Under the pieces are notes generated by a model. That model did not search any database, had not been told where the DNA came from, and worked only from the letters and a program-made list of their open reading frames with translations. A stretch of 31,305 nt of DNA from a virus, in IMG/VR virus record IMGVR_UViG_3300024236_000331, positions 1 to 31,305 of that record. One strand, written 5' to 3'. The position numbers were made by a program, and so were the translations under genes. Below are positions 55 to 15,017 of the stretch, one piece after another. Every line of letters starts with the position of its first letter. Positions within the stretch are counted from its first letter, which is position 1.

Positions 55-729
55 TTAGACGCTGGTAATCCCTTCAACATCAACAGGCGAACCTGTGGCT
101 TGCCATTGTTGAATTTGTTGATGTATGTACTTGTGGTTGTGTGGGTGAAAATGGTTGACTCTGGCATCAACACCTGCTCCGTTGTAGCTGGGATCATCCA
201 GTTTGCTCAACTGCATCAATCCCACACTGGGTACAGTGATGTTGGGTACACACAGTTGTAGTGTGTCATTGAGCAGTGTTAGTGCTGGCCAATACAACAC
301 TTGTCTAAAATGATGTGCTAGTACACTGATTGCACCCAAGTACATAATCTGTCTATTCTGCTGCCAACTGTCTGTCATGTACCAGTCTACTGCGTTTCTA
401 GCAAACTGTTGACTCTTGTGTCTTATCTCACCACTGGCTATTCTACTGAGATGCACTTGCTCGCTGGGCTGTTTGTAGCAGTTGAGATCCAAACGTTCTA
501 TACTACTGCTAACAAATATTAGATCAGTGTGTTTGGTGTTGTTGTGCAGTATGTAGTTGGTTAGTTGGTTGAGACTCCAATCAGGTCCAGTTCCACTAGC
601 AGCTAGGTTATCCACAGTGTTGTGTTGTTTCAATAGTTGTGGCCAAGCAGTATCCCAACTGATCTTTCCATCGTCTGTGGGCCACAATGGATCTACAAAG
701 CTGTCTCCAAATACTGCAACTTTATTCAT
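55..729 (-). CDS. SGNH/GDSL-type hydrolase-like protein
   Basis: A 224-residue protein that begins with a typical SGNH block I: GDSF at residues 8-11, with Ser10 as the expected nucleophile. Near the C-terminus is a His-rich stretch with HPHNH around residues 195-200, where these enzymes carry the catalytic His. A middle segment with AASGTG resembles the oxyanion-hole block. Family members are esterases or lipases acting on acyl or acetyl groups, often on polysaccharides, which would suit a phage with a large sugar module; that substrate is inference. Its ATG lies inside the last codons of the helicase gene (8-base overlap), so it is co-transcribed with gp41. No signal peptide is seen. It could instead be a virion-associated or inactive family member. 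Confidence 0.6.
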   Translation of the reverse strand: MNKVAVFGDSFVDPLWPTDDGKISWDTAWPQLLKQHNTVDNLAASGTGPDWSLNQLTNYILHNNTKHTDLIFVSSSIERLDLNCYKQPSEQVHLSRIASGEIRHKSQQFARNAVDWYMTDSWQQNRQIMYLGAISVLAHHFRQVLYWPALTLLNDTLQLCVPNITVPSVGLMQLSKLDDPSYNGAGVDARVNHFHPHNHKYIHQQIQQWQATGSPVDVEGITSV

Positions 730-2152
730 TGCCTAGTTGACCTAAGAAACTTCTTAGTGCTGTACTGTCTGCTTCTGCACGTATCTTTCCAACATTGCTG
801 CCTTTGTTGGGCTCGTCTGATTCAGTGTTGTTGCTGTTGTTGCGTTGTATTTGACTGAGTACATTGTTGCCACTGGTTTGTGAATTTGCACCGCTATAGT
901 CGTCTTCACCATCTTCACCTAAGTCTTCAATGCGTAGTGTGTCCAAGTTAAAGCCTAGATCAATCTTTTGTCCTACGCCACTACTGTTACGTGTCTTCAT
1001 CAACTGTAGTTGATAGCGTCCACGTTCACGCATAGCTCTACTTGTAAAGATACCAAACACATTGTCTGCTGTTTGAATCTTACTAAGTCCACCACTGATG
1101 TGCGAGTGATCAAATTCAATCTCTTCCACAGCACCACGATTCAACTGTGCCGCTGTAACAAACACTGTGTTCAATTCCATTGCTAGGTTACGTAGCTCTT
1201 CACTTACGTACTTGTCTTTGATAAACAAGTTCTCTGCACTAACCTTTGTACCGGCTGGCATCAACAAGTCCAAGTAGTCAATCAGTAGTACGTCTACCTT
1301 CTTGCCTGTTTTAATCTCATACTCTTTGATGTAACTGCGTACATCATTTGCTGTCTTGCCCGATGGCATATACTTGACTTGGAATGCACCTGACTTCTTG
1401 CCAATAATCTTAACCTTCATCTCAACATCGTCAATGCTCTTAAACACATCACGACTTGGAATGCCTGTGGTCATACTATCAAGTCTCATACTAACTAGAC
1501 TCTCCGCAAGCTCTAGTGTCAAGTAGATCACGTTCAAGCCTTTCTCAGCCATGTTAACACCAATGTTAGCAAGGAACAAACTCTTACCTGCACCTGAGCC
1601 ACCTGCAAAGATATTCAGCTCGCCTCTGTTAAAGCCGCCAAACAGTTTCTTATCCATAGCTGGCCAGCCTGTGCTTACCTGTCCGTTAGTACTCTTAATG
1701 CCTTCTAGTCTTGCTCTTGGATCAGCATAGTAGTCTGTACCCAAGTCTTTTTGCAAGCCAATCTGTACAGCCTTCTTTACTAGATCCTCACATGCACCAT
1801 AGTCGCCATTCTCTAACAAGTCAGCACTCTTTAGGATTGCCGCTTCTAATGCTTTGTGTTTACTAAACGTTTCAAACTCTGCTAGTAACCAATCATAGTG
1901 ATTCTCTTGTAACTTCCCCGGATCTTTTAAATTAACGTCAGTTGCTGCATTAATCATATCAAACGTAGGCAATGCATTGTGTTCACTAACATAGTTGTTT
2001 AAAAACTCTGCAGGTGCTTTTAGTCTTCTATCAAAACTATCTGGATCAAACACAGCCTGACAACGTACAAAGCTCTCAGCATCGCTCATCATCATTTCTA
2101 GATATACTTTTTGTATATCGTATCCATAGTCTGTGTTTTGTCTAGTGCTCAT
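722..2152 (-). CDS. 41: Replicative DNA helicase, T4 gp41-like (DnaB family)
   Basis: A 476-residue DnaB/RecA-fold helicase that unwinds DNA at the phage fork and works with the primase encoded at 4747-5727. An N-terminal helical domain (about residues 1-140) precedes the ATPase domain. Walker A GGSGAGKS is at about 184-191, Walker B LLIDYLDLL near 290, and a QLNRG stretch matches the DnaB Q-containing motif H4. The C-terminal tail is acidic and Asn/Ser-rich. Length matches T4 gp41 (475). GGAAG lies just upstream of the ATG, and a consensus sigma70-type promoter sits in the leader. The SGNH gene follows with an overlap. Confidence 0.93.
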   Translation of the reverse strand: MSTRQNTDYGYDIQKVYLEMMMSDAESFVRCQAVFDPDSFDRRLKAPAEFLNNYVSEHNALPTFDMINAATDVNLKDPGKLQENHYDWLLAEFETFSKHKALEAAILKSADLLENGDYGACEDLVKKAVQIGLQKDLGTDYYADPRARLEGIKSTNGQVSTGWPAMDKKLFGGFNRGELNIFAGGSGAGKSLFLANIGVNMAEKGLNVIYLTLELAESLVSMRLDSMTTGIPSRDVFKSIDDVEMKVKIIGKKSGAFQVKYMPSGKTANDVRSYIKEYEIKTGKKVDVLLIDYLDLLMPAGTKVSAENLFIKDKYVSEELRNLAMELNTVFVTAAQLNRGAVEEIEFDHSHISGGLSKIQTADNVFGIFTSRAMRERGRYQLQLMKTRNSSGVGQKIDLGFNLDTLRIEDLGEDGEDDYSGANSQTSGNNVLSQIQRNNSNNTESDEPNKGSNVGKIRAEADSTALRSFLGQLGNE

Positions 2153-4746: not shown

Positions 4747-5727
4747 TTAAGTAAACCATTTTTTTGCTTTCAATCTAATCTTTAATGTGCCACTTTCGGC
4801 AGCATTTGCTATACTGTATAATGTGTATAGTCTGCCATATCTTTGTACAGCATCTCCTACATCATTTATATCTAAGTCCCAGTCTGGTAAACTAACATGC
4901 CATCCTAGTTCGATAGCTTGCTCAACCAACTTACTACCAGCTTTGTCTCTGTCTGGTACAACTATAACATCTTTATTTAATCGATTAAGTAGTAATGCCT
5001 GTGCATCATTGATCTCACTACCGCCTAGCGCACATCCATCTACGTGGATAGCATCTACTTGTCCTTCACACAGGATAACAAAAACTTTGTTGTAGCCTTG
5101 TTCATCTAGTCCGTATACAAATCCAGGTTGTGTTTCTGTGAGATACTTGGGCTTCTTATCTGCTGCAACAGTTCTAGCAGTCCAGCCTACAATACGTTTC
5201 TCATAGTAAAACGGAATAATAAGTCTATCTCTATATGCTAGACTAGGGCTCCAATAGTAATCTGTGTCATCTAAGTTTAGTTGTCTTGAAGACATATACT
5301 CTAGTATAGCCATGCTAAACTTGTTGAAGTCTTTTATATCTGTAATCTTTACAGCATCTGGTGGCAGCGGCACAGTTTCAAATGTAGGCAGTTCTATCTT
5401 GCGCTCTGCAACTTCTACACCTTCGTTTATACGCATCACATCAAATGTTAGCTTAGTTATTGTATCGTCACTGCAATTGAGCCACTGTAGAAGCTTACGT
5501 AGCTTGTATGACACTGGCCTGCCTGGCTGCCAACTTGCTTTGTATCCGCAGTTGAAGCAGTGGTAGCTTACTGTGTCTCCTTCAGAGATAAGTCCTCCGC
5601 GACCACGTTTGTCTGCACTATCGCCGTTATGATGACAGCAGGGTGCATTGAAGCTGGTCCAACCACTGGGTGTAGTTTTACGCTTACCAGGCAGGTGTGC
5701 TGTTATTGTGTCAGATACAATACTCAT
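4747..5727 (-). CDS. 61: DNA primase, T4 gp61-like
   Basis: A 326-residue primase. The N-terminus holds a zinc ribbon, CCHHN (about 30-34) followed by CFNC (about 57-60), as in DnaG-type primases. The middle has a TOPRIM-like core: ILCEGQVDAI (the conserved Glu) near 218-227 and VVPDRDKAG (the DxD) near 255-263. It makes RNA primers for lagging-strand synthesis with gp41. The gene opens an operon that continues into the 35-residue protein, nucleosidase, carbamoyltransferase and SufT-like genes. No Shine-Dalgarno sequence precedes the ATG; a perfect promoter ends only 6 bases upstream, so the mRNA is predicted to be leaderless. Confidence 0.9.
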   Translation of the reverse strand: MSIVSDTITAHLPGKRKTTPSGWTSFNAPCCHHNGDSADKRGRGGLISEGDTVSYHCFNCGYKASWQPGRPVSYKLRKLLQWLNCSDDTITKLTFDVMRINEGVEVAERKIELPTFETVPLPPDAVKITDIKDFNKFSMAILEYMSSRQLNLDDTDYYWSPSLAYRDRLIIPFYYEKRIVGWTARTVAADKKPKYLTETQPGFVYGLDEQGYNKVFVILCEGQVDAIHVDGCALGGSEINDAQALLLNRLNKDVIVVPDRDKAGSKLVEQAIELGWHVSLPDWDLDINDVGDAVQRYGRLYTLYSIANAAESGTLKIRLKAKKWFT

Positions 5728-6784: not shown

Positions 6785-7156
6785 ATGTTATTAAAAGATA
6801 TTGAACAAAAATTTCCTTTCTTAAGTGTAGTAGCATATGGCGGCAATGAATATGTAGGAATTATTGTTAATCAAGATGTAACAGTAACAACAATGTATCT
6901 ATATACTAAACTCAAAACACCAGAACACAAAGAGTTAATGATTGAACTTGGAGAAATATGGTGGTGGGAATCAAATAGAATGATTCCTATTAATATTTTC
7001 TTACGTAAAGAAATAAATGATATTAACTATAGTTTAATGACTATGAATACCAAAGATGTTAAAGTTATTGTTGGACCGTGTGTTAATCTAAATAACCTAA
7101 CTATAAAACGTATTAAACGTAAAAGCGTTCAAGTTATGCGGAAGCCTGCTCGTTAA
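6785..7156 (+). CDS. Conserved-type hypothetical protein, plus strand
   Basis: A 123-residue protein of unknown function, one of only two convincing plus-strand genes. It is a mixed alpha/beta, soluble-looking sequence with a striking GEIWWWESNRMIPINIFL segment (about 57-74) and a very basic C-terminus (IKRIKRKSVQVMRKPAR), so nucleic acid binding is possible. Codon use is AT-rich as in its neighbours. The gene diverges from the structural gene and converges with the mini-DnaE gene, whose last 23 bases it overlaps. I see no clear ribosome site before the ATG. The segment resembles small regulators only in size; no family is recognised. Confidence 0.72.
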   Translation: MLLKDIEQKFPFLSVVAYGGNEYVGIIVNQDVTVTTMYLYTKLKTPEHKELMIELGEIWWWESNRMIPINIFLRKEINDINYSLMTMNTKDVKVIVGPCVNLNNLTIKRIKRKSVQVMRKPAR

Positions 7157-7706
7157 GTTGTTCGCATATTAAGTTTACATGTACAACACAGGATAATGCG
7201 TATGCTACAGCATGTGCTTTCTTAAAATAGTAACTGCCGTCTTCAGGCTTCTTCCAAACTTCTTCGAATATCGTTTGCCATGTTTCGTTGGCAAGATGCC
7301 TCTTCGCAGGCCGAATTATCGCTAGTGTCGCTGCTAACTGTTCTACCGAAGTAGGTTTCAATTGCTGCAATAGTTCGCTGTGCCCGTTTAGATGAAAAAC
7401 TTGATCTGAAAAATCCTTGTGTTCTAGTAGTTGCCATAACGGTTGTTTCTCCATTAGCTCAGTTAAATGTTTCTCGTTGCGTACACCTTTATAGATACTT
7501 ACGTTAAGAAAGTCTAGTTTAAAGTAGCCACGCTCTTCTGCGGTCTTATGTTCGATTGTAGATAAGTTGTCTATAGGGTTGTGTGGAACTTCGGTTGCAT
7601 ACACACCAGTGTTATGCTTCTTACCTGTATCTAGTTTTGCCACACGATGCTTGAGTTGAGAAAGTATAATATCTCTATCAGCAAAGTCAATGTCAATATC
7701 CGGCAT
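7134..7706 (-). CDS. Miniature DnaE-like (DNA polymerase III alpha motif) protein
   Basis: A 190-residue protein that carries, in the order found in C-family polymerases, PDIDIDF (2-8), a KKHNTGVYATEVPHNPI segment (29-45; DnaE: RH-x-x-HAAGVVI...PL), GYFKLDFLNV (60-69; DnaE: GL-K-DFLGL), VFHLNGHSELLQQLKPTSVE (103-122; DnaE: GVFQ...LLR-LKPT-FEDL) with IIRPA (130-134; DnaE: LYRPG), and FKKAHAVAYAL (161-171; DnaE: FNKSHAVAYAL). All three Asp positions of the C-family active site have counterparts. Full DnaE is about 1100 residues, so the spacings are heavily compressed and the PHP, beta-binding and OB parts are absent. AGGA lies 6 bases before the ATG. Whether it polymerises DNA or only binds it is unknown; marine T4-like phages seem to carry relatives labelled hypothetical. 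Confidence 0.8.
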   Translation of the reverse strand: MPDIDIDFADRDIILSQLKHRVAKLDTGKKHNTGVYATEVPHNPIDNLSTIEHKTAEERGYFKLDFLNVSIYKGVRNEKHLTELMEKQPLWQLLEHKDFSDQVFHLNGHSELLQQLKPTSVEQLAATLAIIRPAKRHLANETWQTIFEEVWKKPEDGSYYFKKAHAVAYALSCVVHVNLICEQLNEQASA

Positions 7707-8168: not shown

Positions 8169-8511
8169 TGTTGATACTCATCCATCGTTGCACTACTGGC
8201 ATAAGTTGCTCGTGTGCGTTATCAAACCATGCCTCTATATGATAGTCTACTCTGCTAGGACGTTCTGTTTTTACTGTACGCATATCCATCCATACAATAT
8301 AATCAGGATCTAAATACTCAACTGCTTCATTTGTATTACAGCGTTTGTCTATTACTACAGTCTTGCCTGCGGCAACAATGCCGTCTACATATCCACGAAG
8401 TTCATTTGCATAACTATCTTTGTTTACATATACACCATTGATTAGATCAGCAAATGGTTTTGCTATTGTAGTCTTGCCCGAACCTTCAGGACCGCATATT
8501 AAAATTTTCAT
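8161..8511 (-). CDS. Small P-loop kinase-like protein
   Basis: A 116-residue protein with Walker A GPEGSGKTT (7-15) right after the first beta strand, as in adenylylsulfate kinase, polynucleotide kinase and related small-molecule or nucleotide kinases. A second hydrophobic strand, TVVIDKRC (about 51-58), follows the pattern of the CysC-like group, where a DK or DG pair sits near Walker B, and YIVWMDM (about 71-77) forms a further strand. The lid region is very short, so the protein is smaller than a usual CysC (about 180). Substrate unknown; a nucleotide, sulfate or sugar kinase are all possible. Overlaps both neighbours. Confidence 0.68.
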   Translation of the reverse strand: MKILICGPEGSGKTTIAKPFADLINGVYVNKDSYANELRGYVDGIVAAGKTVVIDKRCNTNEAVEYLDPDYIVWMDMRTVKTERPSRVDYHIEAWFDNAHEQLMPVVQRWMSINNA

Positions 8512-9188
8512 AACGTTGCTTCCTTTACAACTTGTTTTACTAACTCAACATCTTTTGGATTACGCTTAAATCTCATTGCCCAGTGGCTTGGTTCTAGAAC
8601 TGTACCTAACATTGTTAGCTGCTCATCATTAAAATTATTTAATGCAGCCTTTCCTGTCTTGGAGTTTAATACCAACCACGGAGATATTTTTCCGTCTCTA
8701 ATATCCCAAGTAATTCTATTTGTACTTGCATTTAAAAAATAATGATTGTACAAGCTATCATTTTTTTCTGCCCAATCTACCATAGTTGCTATACTACGTT
8801 CTAGTGCAGTTTGTACACCTTCTCTGCGTATAAGTTCGTTGGCATATTTTTCATACATTTCTTCTCTGCACCAGTGGTCAAGTTTTACACTACTAGTAAC
8901 AACATAGTCAATATATTTGTCAGGATACAGCGGGCGAACGTTATTTACAAAGCTACCAAACTTGACAAAGGCATTGTAAAAACTACTCTTTACAAATTCT
9001 TCATATGTTTTTTCTTTTTTATTACCTGCACTTAATATATAAAATCTTTGAAACGCATACAACCCAACTTGCACACGCTTTTCATCTTTCTGTAGCCAAC
9101 GTCTTTTTGGCTCACACATATGAGCAATAAGAGTGCTTTCTTTCGAATAGCTCTTATTACAATATTCACATGTGTATTTAGATGTCAA
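8508..9188 (-). CDS. Zinc-finger protein of marine T4-like phage type
   Basis: A 226-residue protein when started at TTG 9188, which overlaps the stop of the gene upstream; the frame itself is open to 9269 but that would run 90 bases into the neighbour. Just after the start is a zinc-finger pattern: CEYC (about 7-10), then HMC (about 24-26), C-x2-C...H-x-C. The rest is a helical, aromatic-rich domain (FQRFYIL, YNAFVKFGSFVNNV, LDHWCREEMYEKYA). From memory, marine T4-like phages have relatives starting with a near-identical finger; function unknown, possibly DNA or RNA binding in replication or transcription control. It ends 3 bases into the kinase gene. Confidence 0.75.
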   Translation of the reverse strand: MTSKYTCEYCNKSYSKESTLIAHMCEPKRRWLQKDEKRVQVGLYAFQRFYILSAGNKKEKTYEEFVKSSFYNAFVKFGSFVNNVRPLYPDKYIDYVVTSSVKLDHWCREEMYEKYANELIRREGVQTALERSIATMVDWAEKNDSLYNHYFLNASTNRITWDIRDGKISPWLVLNSKTGKAALNNFNDEQLTMLGTVLEPSHWAMRFKRNPKDVELVKQVVKEATL

Positions 9189-9648
9189 CTTTTTCGTATC
9201 CGTGATCTTTTGCAAGTTGCTTGATTTCTTTTTTTGTAGATATTCTAGCAAGTGTTTCAACCTCATCAAGTTTCATATTAGGATATATTTGCGATAATAG
9301 TTTTACTGCTTTACTACTATCGTCTTTCTTTTTCTTAAGTCCTATCCAAGGATGGAACTGTTGTTTTCCAGTATTACCTGCTACACACAACAACTGCCAT
9401 TGCAGTTTGATATGGTTAGTGCCGCCTAGCTCATTCCAGTTTTTGTTGTAGTATTCGTTGACTTTGAATACTGCTAGTGCAGTCTTTTCGTAGTTGCCTT
9501 TAACACTACTAATATAGCGATTGAGATTCCATAAATCGCCTTTGATATCTTTCTTGCCAACATCACTAGCAGCATCGTATAACTCTTTCATGTTGTTATC
9601 GATTGCTGGTATTAATACTTTAAACAAGTCAAGTTCTTTATTTGGCAT
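9178..9648 (-). CDS. Conserved-type phage protein, unknown function
   Basis: A 156-residue soluble, Lys- and Asn-rich protein. Notable segments are DIKGDLWNLNRYISSVKG (about 34-51), VNEYYNKNWNEL (about 63-74) and FHPWIGLKKKKDD (about 98-110). The C-terminal 30 residues look like a small helical domain (EVETLARISTKKEIKQLAKDHG). I recall similar proteins next to a zinc-finger protein in marine T4-like phages, but no function. A small clamp-loader subunit (gp62) was considered because of size; no motif supports it. Start and stop overlap both neighbours. Confidence 0.72.
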   Translation of the reverse strand: MPNKELDLFKVLIPAIDNNMKELYDAASDVGKKDIKGDLWNLNRYISSVKGNYEKTALAVFKVNEYYNKNWNELGGTNHIKLQWQLLCVAGNTGKQQFHPWIGLKKKKDDSSKAVKLLSQIYPNMKLDEVETLARISTKKEIKQLAKDHGYEKVDI

Positions 9649-9823
9649 TTTTTGTTTTCTTTGGTGTTACTTTTTTTGGTGCAGCTTTCTTTTTCTTACC
9701 CCAAGTATATACAATATCTTCTTGTTCAGTACGTGCGCCTGGCGGACATACTTCTATTTTATTTCCTTTAGATAACCATTCGTCTATTGCTTTTTGGTCT
9801 TTATTAGTTATTTCATATCTCAT
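9638..9823 (-). CDS. 61-residue basic-tailed small phage protein
   Basis: A 61-residue protein with a folded-looking N-terminal half (MRYEITNKDQKAIDEWLSKG) followed by VCPPGART, then a Lys/Pro/Ala-rich tail (KKKKAAPKKVTPKK). Such tails bind nucleic acid non-specifically. The start overlaps the end of kdsB and the stop overlaps the next gene. Small proteins of this layout are common in marine T4-like phages. Function unknown. Confidence 0.7.
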   Translation of the reverse strand: MRYEITNKDQKAIDEWLSKGNKIEVCPPGARTEQEDIVYTWGKKKKAAPKKVTPKKTKNAK

Positions 9824-10484
9824 TTTTAATGTGCCAATCTTTTAGGTCTTGGGGTGAATTTATTTCAATGCCGTTGAACTCAACTTCAACTACACCTATC
9901 TTAATGCCATTTTGTATCCAACGTAACTGCTCGAGTTGTTCTAATGTTTCTTCAGCATACTTAGTGCTTACATTGTACGTTGCTTTTACTTCTCTATTGT
10001 AGCCATACACTCCTAAGTGATGATCTCCATATTGTAAACTAGCACGTAGAAACCAATGTGCTCTACCTCTGCTGTGTATCATTTTAACACTGTTTGGATC
10101 ATTTCGCAAGTTAAAATCCATTGCTGTATATGCAGTTGCTACATCACTGCGCTGTAGTTCGCCTTCGACTGCACGAATAATATCTTCTGTGATATCAGGC
10201 ATGTCGCCTTGTACATTTATATATCTATCATACTGTAATACTTCGTCAATAACTTGCATACAACGTTCTGTGCCATTTTCTGCATCTTGTGTCATTAGAC
10301 ATTTGCCGCCGCCTATATAGTTGTATACTTCTTGTGCATCTGTTAGTACGTAAGTGTCAAGCCCTGTAGCAACACACTTGTTGTAAACGTGTTCTATTAG
10401 TGGTACACCATTTAGTTTTTCCATCATCTTACCAGGAAAGCGTGTGCTTGCATATCGTGCTGGTATTAGTATAGCTGTTGTCAT
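9813..10484 (-). CDS. kdsB: CMP-Kdo synthetase (3-deoxy-manno-octulosonate cytidylyltransferase)
   Basis: A 223-residue KdsB. It activates Kdo with CTP to give CMP-Kdo, the donor for Kdo transferases of LPS or capsule. Signature segments are IPARYASTRFPGK near the N-terminus (nucleotide-binding loop), NVQGDMPDI in the middle (family NVQGDEP-I), HLGVYGY (family H-G-Y-Y) and EQLEQLRW (family ESLEQLR). It is about 25 residues shorter than most cellular KdsB. I start at the ATG overlapping the TGA of kdsA, with GGAG 6 bases before; an ATG two codons earlier lies too close to that site. Directly coupled to kdsA. Confidence 0.92.
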   Translation of the reverse strand: MTTAILIPARYASTRFPGKMMEKLNGVPLIEHVYNKCVATGLDTYVLTDAQEVYNYIGGGKCLMTQDAENGTERCMQVIDEVLQYDRYINVQGDMPDITEDIIRAVEGELQRSDVATAYTAMDFNLRNDPNSVKMIHSRGRAHWFLRASLQYGDHHLGVYGYNREVKATYNVSTKYAEETLEQLEQLRWIQNGIKIGVVEVEFNGIEINSPQDLKDWHIKNEI

Positions 10485-11272
10485 AACCATCTCCAGTTGT
10501 TAGCAGCATTGTGTATAACTTTGATTTGCTTTACTGTATCTTCAAAGTCTTCTAGTTTAAGCATATTAGGTCCGTCACTAGGTGCGTTATCTGGGTCAGC
10601 ATGTACTTCTAAGAAGAAGTTGCTAACACCCATAGCAGCGGCAGCACGAGCAAGACCTGGAACGTAATCACGATTGCCGCCACTCGATTCACCATTACCT
10701 CCTGGCTTTTGGACAGCGTGGGTAACGTCAAAAACACAAGGTACATCATAATGCTCAAGCATATACTGGAGCCCAGTGTAATCAACAACCAAAGTATTAT
10801 AGCCAAAACTAGTACCTCTTTCTGTTATCCAAACTTCTTCTGCACCTTCTGTTTTACTTAGTATACCTTTAACATCCCACGGTGCTAGGAACTGACCTTT
10901 CTTAATATTAACAATCTTATCTGTATCACAGGCTGCTTGAATAAGATCTGTTTGTCTACACAAGAACGCAGGAATCTGATAGACATCAACTGCATCTTTA
11001 AACTGTCGTTCAATACGTCTAATCTGTACTGCGTCATGCACGTCTGTTAGCGTCTTTACTCCTAGTAATACTTTTAGTGCTAAAAAGTCTGTAAGCGTTG
11101 CTTCCATGCCTGCACCACGCTTGCCTTTGATACTGCTACGATTGGCTTTGTCAAAACTTGCTTTGAAATAATATTCAATGCCGTACTTGTCGCATACACG
11201 TTTGCACTCTCGAGCAATCTCTGATGACTGTGCTAGTCCTTCGTGTTGACAAGGTCCTGCAATAATTCTCAT
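10481..11272 (-). CDS. kdsA: Kdo-8-phosphate synthase
   Basis: A 263-residue KdsA, which condenses phosphoenolpyruvate with arabinose 5-phosphate. Signature segments: IAGPC (4-8), FKASFDKANRSS (37-47), PAFLCRQTDL (101-110), FGYNTLVVD (156-164) and FDVTHAVQKPGG (181-192). Cys8, His185, Glu222 and Asp233 fit the four ligands known for the metal-dependent class (as in Aquifex), whereas the E. coli type has Asn in place of the Cys. The start is ATG 11272 with AAGGA 6 bases upstream; the TTG two codons earlier is less likely. The gene has a good promoter inside the gene before it. No KdsD or KdsC homologue is in the window, so the phage would rely on host arabinose 5-phosphate and phosphatase. Confidence 0.95.
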   Translation of the reverse strand: MRIIAGPCQHEGLAQSSEIARECKRVCDKYGIEYYFKASFDKANRSSIKGKRGAGMEATLTDFLALKVLLGVKTLTDVHDAVQIRRIERQFKDAVDVYQIPAFLCRQTDLIQAACDTDKIVNIKKGQFLAPWDVKGILSKTEGAEEVWITERGTSFGYNTLVVDYTGLQYMLEHYDVPCVFDVTHAVQKPGGNGESSGGNRDYVPGLARAAAAMGVSNFFLEVHADPDNAPSDGPNMLKLEDFEDTVKQIKVIHNAANNWRWL

Positions 11273-11274
11273 AT

Positions 11275-11550
11275 TCAATCCTTAATGCTATCCTTAATAG
11301 TATAGTACACTACTAGTAATCTGTCAAGTTGTTTCTTTAATGTAGGATTTTGATCAGCAGTTATTTGCATGTCTCGCCATTCATCATAACCAAACAACGT
11401 TCCTTGTGCCCGAGATACTGCTGCTGCATCGCCGCCAATAATCCAACGGGGTATCTCAGGTTTGTTAGCATAACGTGCATAAACAACGCCATCCGCGTTT
11501 TCGTATATTAAAGTTTCACCTTCAATAAGACTACCCAACTGATGTTCCAC
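11275..11550 (-). CDS. 91-residue hypothetical protein
   Basis: A 91-residue protein of unknown function. The core YENADGVVYARYANKPEIPRW has the shape of a small beta hairpin; the C-terminus LKKQLDRLLVVYYTIKDS is a likely helix. The stop overlaps the region of the kdsA ribosome site, and the start overlaps the cupin gene. Short conserved proteins with a YARY or R-W-I-G pattern occur in marine T4-like phages, as far as I recall. The kdsA promoter lies in its last third. Confidence 0.65.
   Translation of the reverse strand: MEHQLGSLIEGETLIYENADGVVYARYANKPEIPRWIIGGDAAAVSRAQGTLFGYDEWRDMQITADQNPTLKKQLDRLLVVYYTIKDSIKD
11299..11327 (-). promoter_or_regulatory. Intragenic sigma70-type promoter for kdsA-kdsB
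   Basis: On the minus strand TTGACA (11322-11327), 17 bases, TATACT (11299-11304). Predicted transcription start is near 11292, about 20 bases before the kdsA ATG, leaving the AAGGA ribosome site inside the leader. The position just ahead of kdsA suggests that CMP-Kdo synthesis can be turned on apart from the rest of the operon. Confidence 0.72.
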
Positions 11551-13058: not shown

Positions 13059-13548
13059 AGTCTATTATCTCACACTGTCTACTTATATCCTTAACAAAAA
13101 ATGCACACTGTGGGTTTTCACCTTCAGTAATCGGAACACTTAATAGTTGTCCGTTTTTCATTTTAGGAAAGTACCATTTGACATCATTATAAAAATTTAC
13201 TATTTCAATAGTGCCAAATCCTGGCTGGTAGCTTGTTAATGGATTAAATAGAAATGATTCAAATCCACGTTCATTTAAACTAGTGATCGGTAATACTTCT
13301 AAGTCACTACCTGCTTCACTACATCCAACAGCAATACACCAATCTAATGGCATAGTAACTTGATTACCATTAATATTAATAACTGCTGCAGGGCTATTAA
13401 AACTTTCTAAAAAGATTAACGGTACATAAAAGAAATCAGGATCTTGTGGGCTACTATTATCAAGCACACTAAATCTCATAGTGTCGTCAACTTCGTCTGG
13501 TAAACTATTTAAATTAAAACTTTTATTTTCTAATGTAAGTATATTCAT
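13042..13548 (-). CDS. Conserved-type hypothetical protein between UvsW and oxygenases
   Basis: A 168-residue acidic, beta-rich protein without a family I recognise. Notable segments are SLPDEVDDTMRFSVLD (about 15-30), MPLDWCIAVGC (about 66-76) and GFGTIEIVNFYNDVKWYFP (about 109-127). Marine T4-like phages seem to have proteins with the same MPLDW- and FEDF-like pattern but no function. It begins in the last codons of uvsW and ends in the start of the first oxygenase. Confidence 0.68.
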   Translation of the reverse strand: MNILTLENKSFNLNSLPDEVDDTMRFSVLDNSSPQDPDFFYVPLIFLESFNSPAAVININGNQVTMPLDWCIAVGCSEAGSDLEVLPITSLNERGFESFLFNPLTSYQPGFGTIEIVNFYNDVKWYFPKMKNGQLLSVPITEGENPQCAFFVKDISRQCEIIDFGKLL

Positions 13549-15017
13549 TTATTCCAATCTACTTTCTCTATTGTAAATGGATACTCTGCTTCTTTGTAAA
13601 ATTTCTTACGTTGAGTCAAGTGTCGCTTCGCAAACTTGCATGTAGATGTCAAGTCCCATATTTGAACGAAGTCTTTATCTTTTGCTATTCTTACGCCTCT
13701 ACCAATACTTTGAATTACTCTTACGAAAGACTTACCAGGCTCCAAAAGAACCAAGTTAAAAATACGAGGAATGTTAAGACCCACGGCAGCAACTCCATAG
13801 GTTGCGATAATAACCTCATTAGTTCCTTCACGTATTGTATCATATGTTTCTTTCCTGTCTTTGTTCTTAACAGCGCCGCTTACAAACGTACTGTTTGGAA
13901 TGAGTTCAGCAAGTGCTTGTCCTGCACTTATTCTATCTACTAGTATTAATGTGTTGCCTGAATCTTTTACTGTGTTTAATAGTTTGCCTATGTATTCTAA
14001 TCGTTGTGTATTTGTTGTTAGATATTTTAATTCTTCTTGGTAGCCTGCATGTGCTACTGTGTCCATTAGCTGTACTACATTAACATGACACTGCGATAGC
14101 ACACCTTTGTCTTGTAATTCTTTTGCACTAATGTTTCCGATAACAGGACCAAGACTAGCATGAATACTTTCGAACTCAAACTTCTCTTTAGGTACTGTAC
14201 CAGTTAGTCCCCAACGTATGGGTGCATTCCGTAGGTTGCGAGTGAGCAGGTTCTTGAGAACTTCTGCTTTGGCTTGGTGTACTTCGTCGACAATAATAGT
14301 GCTCACACCTTCTAAGAACTCAGCTAGTGATAACACTGCGCTTCCGTCTTTATGCTTCTTGTCCAAAATATTTAAGGATTGCCAAGTGCAAATAGTATGA
14401 GTCTTACCTAGGTTCTTCCTGTCTCCGAAGTACACCCCTACATCCAAGCCGCAGTTAATATAGTCTTCTTCTGTTTGTTCTACTAACGACTTGTTAGGAA
14501 CAATCACAAGACTCCTACCATACGGCTCGCTTATGTGTGACAGCGTTGCTGTGGTAATAGTTTTACCTGCGCCAGTAGCAATCTGTTGCAAGCTCTGTGG
14601 ATTATTCAAAAAGTTATTGATTGCTTCTACTTGGTAGTCACGCAGAATAATATCTTCGCCTTCTGCTGGATGTCCTTCTGGCCATTGTACACCTTGGTCT
14701 TTCCAGTATGTTTCTGTGACTGGGGTGAAATTTAACTGTATTGGATGCCGCCTATCTTCAATGTCAACAATCTGTACACGGTTCTTTGCAAGTACTTGCT
14801 GTACTACATCTAAGTGATTAACGTATCCAGTGCCCCCGATACCAAAGAAAGCAACTTTGCCATCCCAGCGTCCTAGTTTGTACTGTGGCATATGCTTTGC
14901 ATACGGCACTTCAAACTTTAGTGCATTTGATAGCTTTCTACGTATATCTACATCAAGTCCTTCGATCTTAATGTTTACTTCATCTTCGATTATTAGTTTA
15001 CAACTTGCCACTGGCAT
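13545..15017 (-). CDS. uvsW: UvsW-like DNA helicase
   Basis: A 490-residue superfamily 2 helicase. Motif I is QIATGAGKTI (about 143-152), motif II IIVDEVHQAK (DEVH form, about 235-244), motif III LTGTVPKE (about 269-276), with C-terminal RecA2 motifs LILVDR and FVRVIQSIGRGVRI (motif VI). The N-terminal domain (YKLGRWDGKVAFF) matches T4 UvsW. It reverses branched DNA and remodels R-loops, which in T4 switches origin use. It overlaps both neighbours. An intragenic promoter at 15181-15209 could add separate transcription. Confidence 0.92.
   Translation of the reverse strand: MPVASCKLIIEDEVNIKIEGLDVDIRRKLSNALKFEVPYAKHMPQYKLGRWDGKVAFFGIGGTGYVNHLDVVQQVLAKNRVQIVDIEDRRHPIQLNFTPVTETYWKDQGVQWPEGHPAEGEDIILRDYQVEAINNFLNNPQSLQQIATGAGKTITTATLSHISEPYGRSLVIVPNKSLVEQTEEDYINCGLDVGVYFGDRKNLGKTHTICTWQSLNILDKKHKDGSAVLSLAEFLEGVSTIIVDEVHQAKAEVLKNLLTRNLRNAPIRWGLTGTVPKEKFEFESIHASLGPVIGNISAKELQDKGVLSQCHVNVVQLMDTVAHAGYQEELKYLTTNTQRLEYIGKLLNTVKDSGNTLILVDRISAGQALAELIPNSTFVSGAVKNKDRKETYDTIREGTNEVIIATYGVAAVGLNIPRIFNLVLLEPGKSFVRVIQSIGRGVRIAKDKDFVQIWDLTSTCKFAKRHLTQRKKFYKEAEYPFTIEKVDWNK

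Follow-up and report, generated by a model that had tools for sequence, protein, structure and literature searches.

An ORF of 190 codons from an uncultured phage is probably the gene for one part, the C-terminal subunit, of a C-family DNA polymerase that comes in two pieces and lacks a thumb; this enzyme would serve a large T4-like phage as an accessory to its family-B replicase. The ORF product (hereafter the C-half) is encoded in a virus fragment of 31,305 bases (IMG/VR record IMGVR_UViG_3300024236_000331, positions 1-31,305), which was analysed as a whole and is called the window here. Split minimal Pol III alpha enzymes have been on record since 2021, and the ORF of the window adds one member to this group. 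New here are the exact break point between the two pieces, the invariance of residues among marine relatives, the absence of the thumb and of the fingers arginines, the conserved uvsW/primase/helicase neighbourhood, and the occurrence of the family in a 141-kb phage, below 200 kb. The features of the window that bear on the argument are given in Table 1.

Table 1. Positions in the 31,305-base window of the C-half gene and of neighbouring genes; counts are out of 169 loci with a C-half (IMG/VR, 160; isolates, nine), many of which do not extend far enough to include the outer genes.
Feature	Position	Strand	Remarks
DnaB-type replicative helicase	722..2152	-	Pfam match; downstream of C-half, 116/169 loci
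DNA primase	4747..5727	-	Toprim/DnaG_N matches; downstream of C-half, 133/169 loci
PHROG 11637 protein, convergent neighbour	6785..7156	+	overlaps last 23 bases of C-half gene; 141/169 loci
C-half, C-terminal subunit of a predicted split minimal C-family DNA polymerase	7134..7706	-	190 aa; conserved Asp3, Asp5, Lys63, Asp65, Arg132-Pro133, Lys135, His165
PHROG 11058 protein, sub-threshold C2H2-type zinc-finger match	8508..9269	-	upstream of C-half, 151/169 loci
PHROG 11758 protein	9178..9648	-	upstream of C-half, 134/169 loci
UvsW-type helicase	13545..15017	-	Pfam match; upstream of C-half, 97/169 loci

The original prediction took this ORF for a genuine gene related to Pol III, and both profile searches and selection agree with it. 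PHROG 11778, annotated as "DNA polymerase", matches residues 3-183 of the C-half with positions 8-194 of its 197 (E 6.6e-58), and dN/dS against relatives is 0.04-0.11. A weaker match is seen with phrog_405, which holds full-length Pol III-type phage polymerases (E 6.8e-9), while Pfam and NCBIfam searches returned weak, sub-threshold Pol III matches only, since the family is divergent. A profile made from 66 relatives retrieved from the PDB nothing but Pol III alpha chains, with E-values of 0.0012 to 0.096. The C-half is homologous to the palm and fingers of C-family polymerases, with a match far beyond chance, and the DnaE motifs described earlier in this protein are present and in DnaE order. 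The protein starts with MPDIDIDF, which places the catalytic motif at residues 2-8. This start is fixed by an in-frame stop that precedes the ATG by two codons and by an AGGA upstream, so that the motif truly occupies these residues.

The predicted structure of the C-half is confident (pLDDT 93.5, pTM 0.81) and, above noise, it resembles C-family structures only, in agreement with the fold proposed at first. When the model was searched against the PDB with Foldseek, the top 15 rows were all C-family polymerases, and in a second structural alignment the 14 rows with Z-scores of 6.5-10.0 were C-family without exception, the next row, an unrelated one, having a Z of 3.5. Residues 1-187 of the model align to residues 400-784 of E. 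coli DnaE (2hnh) with a Z of 9.1 and an rmsd of 3.8, over 182 aligned residues with 19% identity.

When the C-half is aligned by profile to E. coli DnaE, Met1-Phe8 fall on residues 399-406, Asp3, Asp5 and Asp65 on D401, D403 and D555, Lys63 on K553, and His165 on H760. In E. coli Pol III alpha, the active-site residues are D401, D403 and D555, with H760 as the steric gate, the histidine that tells dNTP from rNTP (PMC8485763). The catalytic aspartates had been predicted to be Asp5, Asp7 and Asp65. Asp5 and Asp65 stand, whereas Asp7 corresponds to D405, which is invariant but does not belong to the published trio, whose third member in the C-half is Asp3. Conservation of the aspartates held up among relatives, the ORFs being taken by tblastn: Asp3, Asp5, Asp7, His31, Gly34, Lys63 and Asp65 are invariant in 155 distinct C-half sequences, some of whose loci were gathered by peptide patterns including the MPDIDIDF or KKxHA motif, with Lys63, Asp65, His31 and Gly34 in none of the patterns used. 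Arg132, Pro133 and His165 are found in 154 of the 155 sequences, and the remaining row is gapped there.

The rest of DnaE is absent from the ORF, as had been claimed, and a further part is missing. The C-half begins at DnaE 399/400 and has neither PHP domain nor thumb; in the local profile alignment no C-half residues are aligned with DnaE about 407-478, the thumb region, and the fingers segment LRRAMGKKK is missing. In E. coli DnaE, the nucleotide-binding part of the palm, with the GRGS motif (R-G-S at 362-364), precedes the PDFDVDF at 400-406. This N-terminal half of the palm is also absent from the ORF, and in relatives it is a separate protein, hereafter the N-half.

The N-half was met in contig G002, where a search for phage DnaE gave a further small ORF containing G-V-G-R-G-S-S and ending in ...DWREFLR, which belongs to PHROG 11127, "DNA polymerase". 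Its model has a pLDDT of 88, and residues 76-183 align to the palms of DnaE and PolC with Z-scores of 8.2-13.1, against 2.6 for an unrelated row; no match was obtained for the first 75 residues. The aligned part corresponds to 278-393 of E. coli DnaE in 2hnh. The G-x-G-R-G-S residues are invariant in 131 N-halves, and the position that aligns with the palm residue R390 of E. coli is occupied by Glu or Asp.

The ends of the N-half and the starts of the C-half fit each other closely. N-halves end 1-10 residues past the palm motif, most of them after 1 (138 of 160 loci stop one residue after the E-F-L motif), and in all complete loci the DxDxD of the C-half lies at most 39 residues from the upstream stop. 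Since, in the alignments to E. coli DnaE, the N-half reaches as far as 393 and the C-half starts from 400, the two proteins are complementary and the break falls between these residues. A search by motif for a fused ORF found none in 392 fetched loci, with a screen that keeps only ORFs resembling the known halves. A long N-half frame in locus L326 was considered as a fusion and rejected, as it is merely an upstream open frame.

The two halves also travel together. By tblastn, 59 of the 62 phage records listed with a C-half are among the 60 listed with an N-half; the three unpaired records are two Slicko-type phages and one record of 109.5 kb, and a profile search did find the N-half of Slicko01 (E 1.2e-18). 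All nine isolate genomes examined (PA5oct, Phosso, Atu_ph07, Vibrio 2.275.O, RaK2, SCTP-2, XacN1, Slicko01 and RAS14) carry the N-half, the C-half and a family-B polymerase, and so do contigs G002, G028, G029, G030, G032 and G033. Two open-ended contigs lack an N-half match: G031 (292 kb) has the C-half, at its very end, plus the family-B polymerase, and G001 (262 kb) has the C-half alone of the three. The N-half gene is absent from the 31-kb window, and conversely no C-half was found in 14 contigs of 49-152 kb that carry an N-half, as can occur when widely spaced genes are sampled in fragments. Indeed, in the genomes examined the two genes are never adjacent and lie from 7 to over 200 kb from each other: 7 kb in G033, 11 kb in Slicko01, 14-15 kb in RAS14 and XacN1, about 30-44 kb in Vibrio 2.275.O, G030, RaK2 and PA5oct, 84 kb in G032, 116-122 kb in SCTP-2 and G002, and about 180-224 kb in Atu_ph07, G028 and Phosso. 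In G029 they are 324 kb apart along the linear contig; were the genome circular, the distance might be less.

The family is widespread in viral data, with at least 566 C-half and at least 400 N-half stretches in IMG/VR. Cellular genomes gave 13 matches among 84,980 species genomes; all are in MAGs and are probably phage contigs. One MAG contig of 335 kb (G028:C57) has the N-half, the C-half and the family-B polymerase together, its C-half being 77% identical to that of the window. This contig was binned with Neomarinimicrobiota and is probably a misbinned jumbo phage, and a second contig of the bin repeats the C-half (loci L393/L399, PBPT01000016.1 and PBPT01000082.1). The Slicko01 genome measures only 141 kb, so the pair occurs outside jumbo phages too.

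We propose that the cut through the palm falls in the loop joining its nucleotide-binding part (the N-half, DnaE about 277-393) to its metal-binding strands (the C-half, about 400-784), that the two halves would assemble non-covalently into one active site, and that the assembled site would add dNTPs to a primer. Since it is without thumb, PHP, clamp-binding and OB parts, the enzyme is probably distributive and accessory, binding DNA weakly and helped by other replisome proteins. It would act beside the family-B replicase within the primase/helicase/UvsW replication-recombination machinery, and not as the main replicase, in tasks such as primer extension or gap filling. Its catalysis may be weak or altered, because thumb and RRAMGKKK are missing and the R390 position holds Glu or Asp. 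A bolder version, which we put forward tentatively and with some doubt, is that the pair could be the smallest known active C-family polymerase: thumb-less, with a palm built from two chains and its grip on DNA taken from other phage proteins (for example the zinc-finger protein), a dedicated second polymerase beside the family-B replicase that might resemble an ancestral DnaE. If active, such a two-gene, thumb-less palm would define the minimum for C-family catalysis, and would be relevant to the question why large T4-like phages retain a polymerase of bacterial type next to their family-B enzyme.

The main rival to a polymerase is a complex of the same two halves that keeps the residues for binding metal and nucleotide but does not extend primers, having lost polymerase activity while retaining nucleotidyl transfer, or having taken a structural role; it would then serve as a nucleotidyltransferase with no part in replication, as a factor that handles primers, or as a structural part of the replisome. 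The missing thumb, PHP, clamp-binding and OB parts, the missing RRAMGKKK segment of the fingers, and the family-B polymerase in every isolate examined all fit such a role. Against it, the three catalytic aspartates and the lysine before the third are invariant and the steric-gate histidine is kept, and we consider it rather unlikely. Far less probable is that the C-half works alone as a miniature polymerase of 190 residues, a stand-alone palm-fingers core and "smallest C-family polymerase" as the original prediction had it. The ORF does contain all three catalytic aspartates and is confidently folded on its own, but half of the palm, the one with GRGS, is missing from it and is supplied by a separate gene which co-occurs with it (the 59 of 62 records above), so we reject the C-half as a stand-alone enzyme. 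The split DnaE of cyanobacteria is joined by inteins, and a split intein could in principle join the two phage pieces after translation; since N-halves run on for only 1-10 residues past the palm motif and C-halves open with theirs, there is no room for intein pieces at the junction, and we rejected this reading as having hardly any chance of being right. Equally improbable, and also rejected, is the reading as the decaying remnant of a dnaE gene that was formerly complete: only part of DnaE is covered, but the active site is invariant, hundreds of relatives share identical boundaries, and purifying selection is strong (dN/dS as above).

The reading as a two-piece accessory polymerase agrees with the account of Iyer et al. 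2021 for group 2.2 jumbo phages. They reported a "phage-specific minimal version" of Pol III alpha whose two proteins are encoded by genes far from each other and which comes with a family-B enzyme, and they suggested that the two pieces reconstitute an enzyme (PMC7824862). In our literature search, which had most subscription journals outside it, the split was named by these authors only and no biochemistry was found for the split polymerase. The Atu_ph07 paper names gp316 as Pol III alpha (PMC6102473), and gp316 is the N-half gene. The family of the window's C-half shares with the group 2.2 enzyme its two pieces, the separate genes, the family-B polymerase in relatives and membership of PHROG 11778 (C-half) and 11127 (N-half), for which the RaK2, Atu_ph07, PA5oct, XacN1 and SCTP-2 records are examples. 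It differs in that the window comes from an uncultured phage, as a fragment showing the C-half alone, and in that the family also occurs in the 141-kb Slicko01, below the jumbo limit.

Compared with E. coli DnaE (2hnh), the C-half shares the Asp triad, the Lys before the third Asp, the RP motif, the steric-gate His and the order of the fold elements, whereas the split enzyme lacks PHP, thumb and OB as well as the clamp- and tau-binding parts, its fingers are reduced and its palm is in two. The palm of PolC (Geobacillus kaustophilus 3f2b/3f2c) aligns with the N-half with Z-scores of 8.2-8.7, but in PolC the palm belongs to one long chain that also has exonuclease and PHP domains. Besides the C-half, we noticed a second PHP-less C-family polymerase in two related contigs, L083 from 1434 (G009 near 83456-84694) and L084 (G011 18-1040). 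This compact DnaE, of 551 aa in L083 and partial in L084, is encoded directly after a DnaB helicase gene and has its closest phage match in an uncultured phage of 484 kb (36% identity). Like the split enzyme it is without PHP domain; unlike it, the protein of L083 keeps RRAFAKK and consists of a single chain extended at its C-terminus.

In marine jumbo phages, a survey detected PF07733 in 51.9% of the members of one major cluster (PMC9123017). Since PF07733 is also the annotation of one N-half in its GenBank record, the split polymerase may rank among the commoner polymerases of phages in the sea.

The replication genes around the C-half, noted from the start, are conserved across related loci, primase, DnaB and UvsW among them, and the conserved block runs uvsW - zinc finger - C-half - primase - DnaB. 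The PHROG 11637 gene is on the strand opposite to the C-half in all 141 loci with a match. The zinc-finger protein of PHROG 11058 is a possible candidate partner of the C-half. RecA/UvsX-like, gp32-like and terminase-like ORFs of T4 type, named by eye, are also present in the window. The N-half gene lies near a GroES-like gene and often also near a clamp-loader gene. Apart from replication, the window carries KdsB- and KdsA-like genes for KDO sugar synthesis (identified by eye; 9813-11278, minus strand), with matches near the same position in 54 and 43 related loci, respectively, which suggests phage-encoded synthesis of surface sugars.
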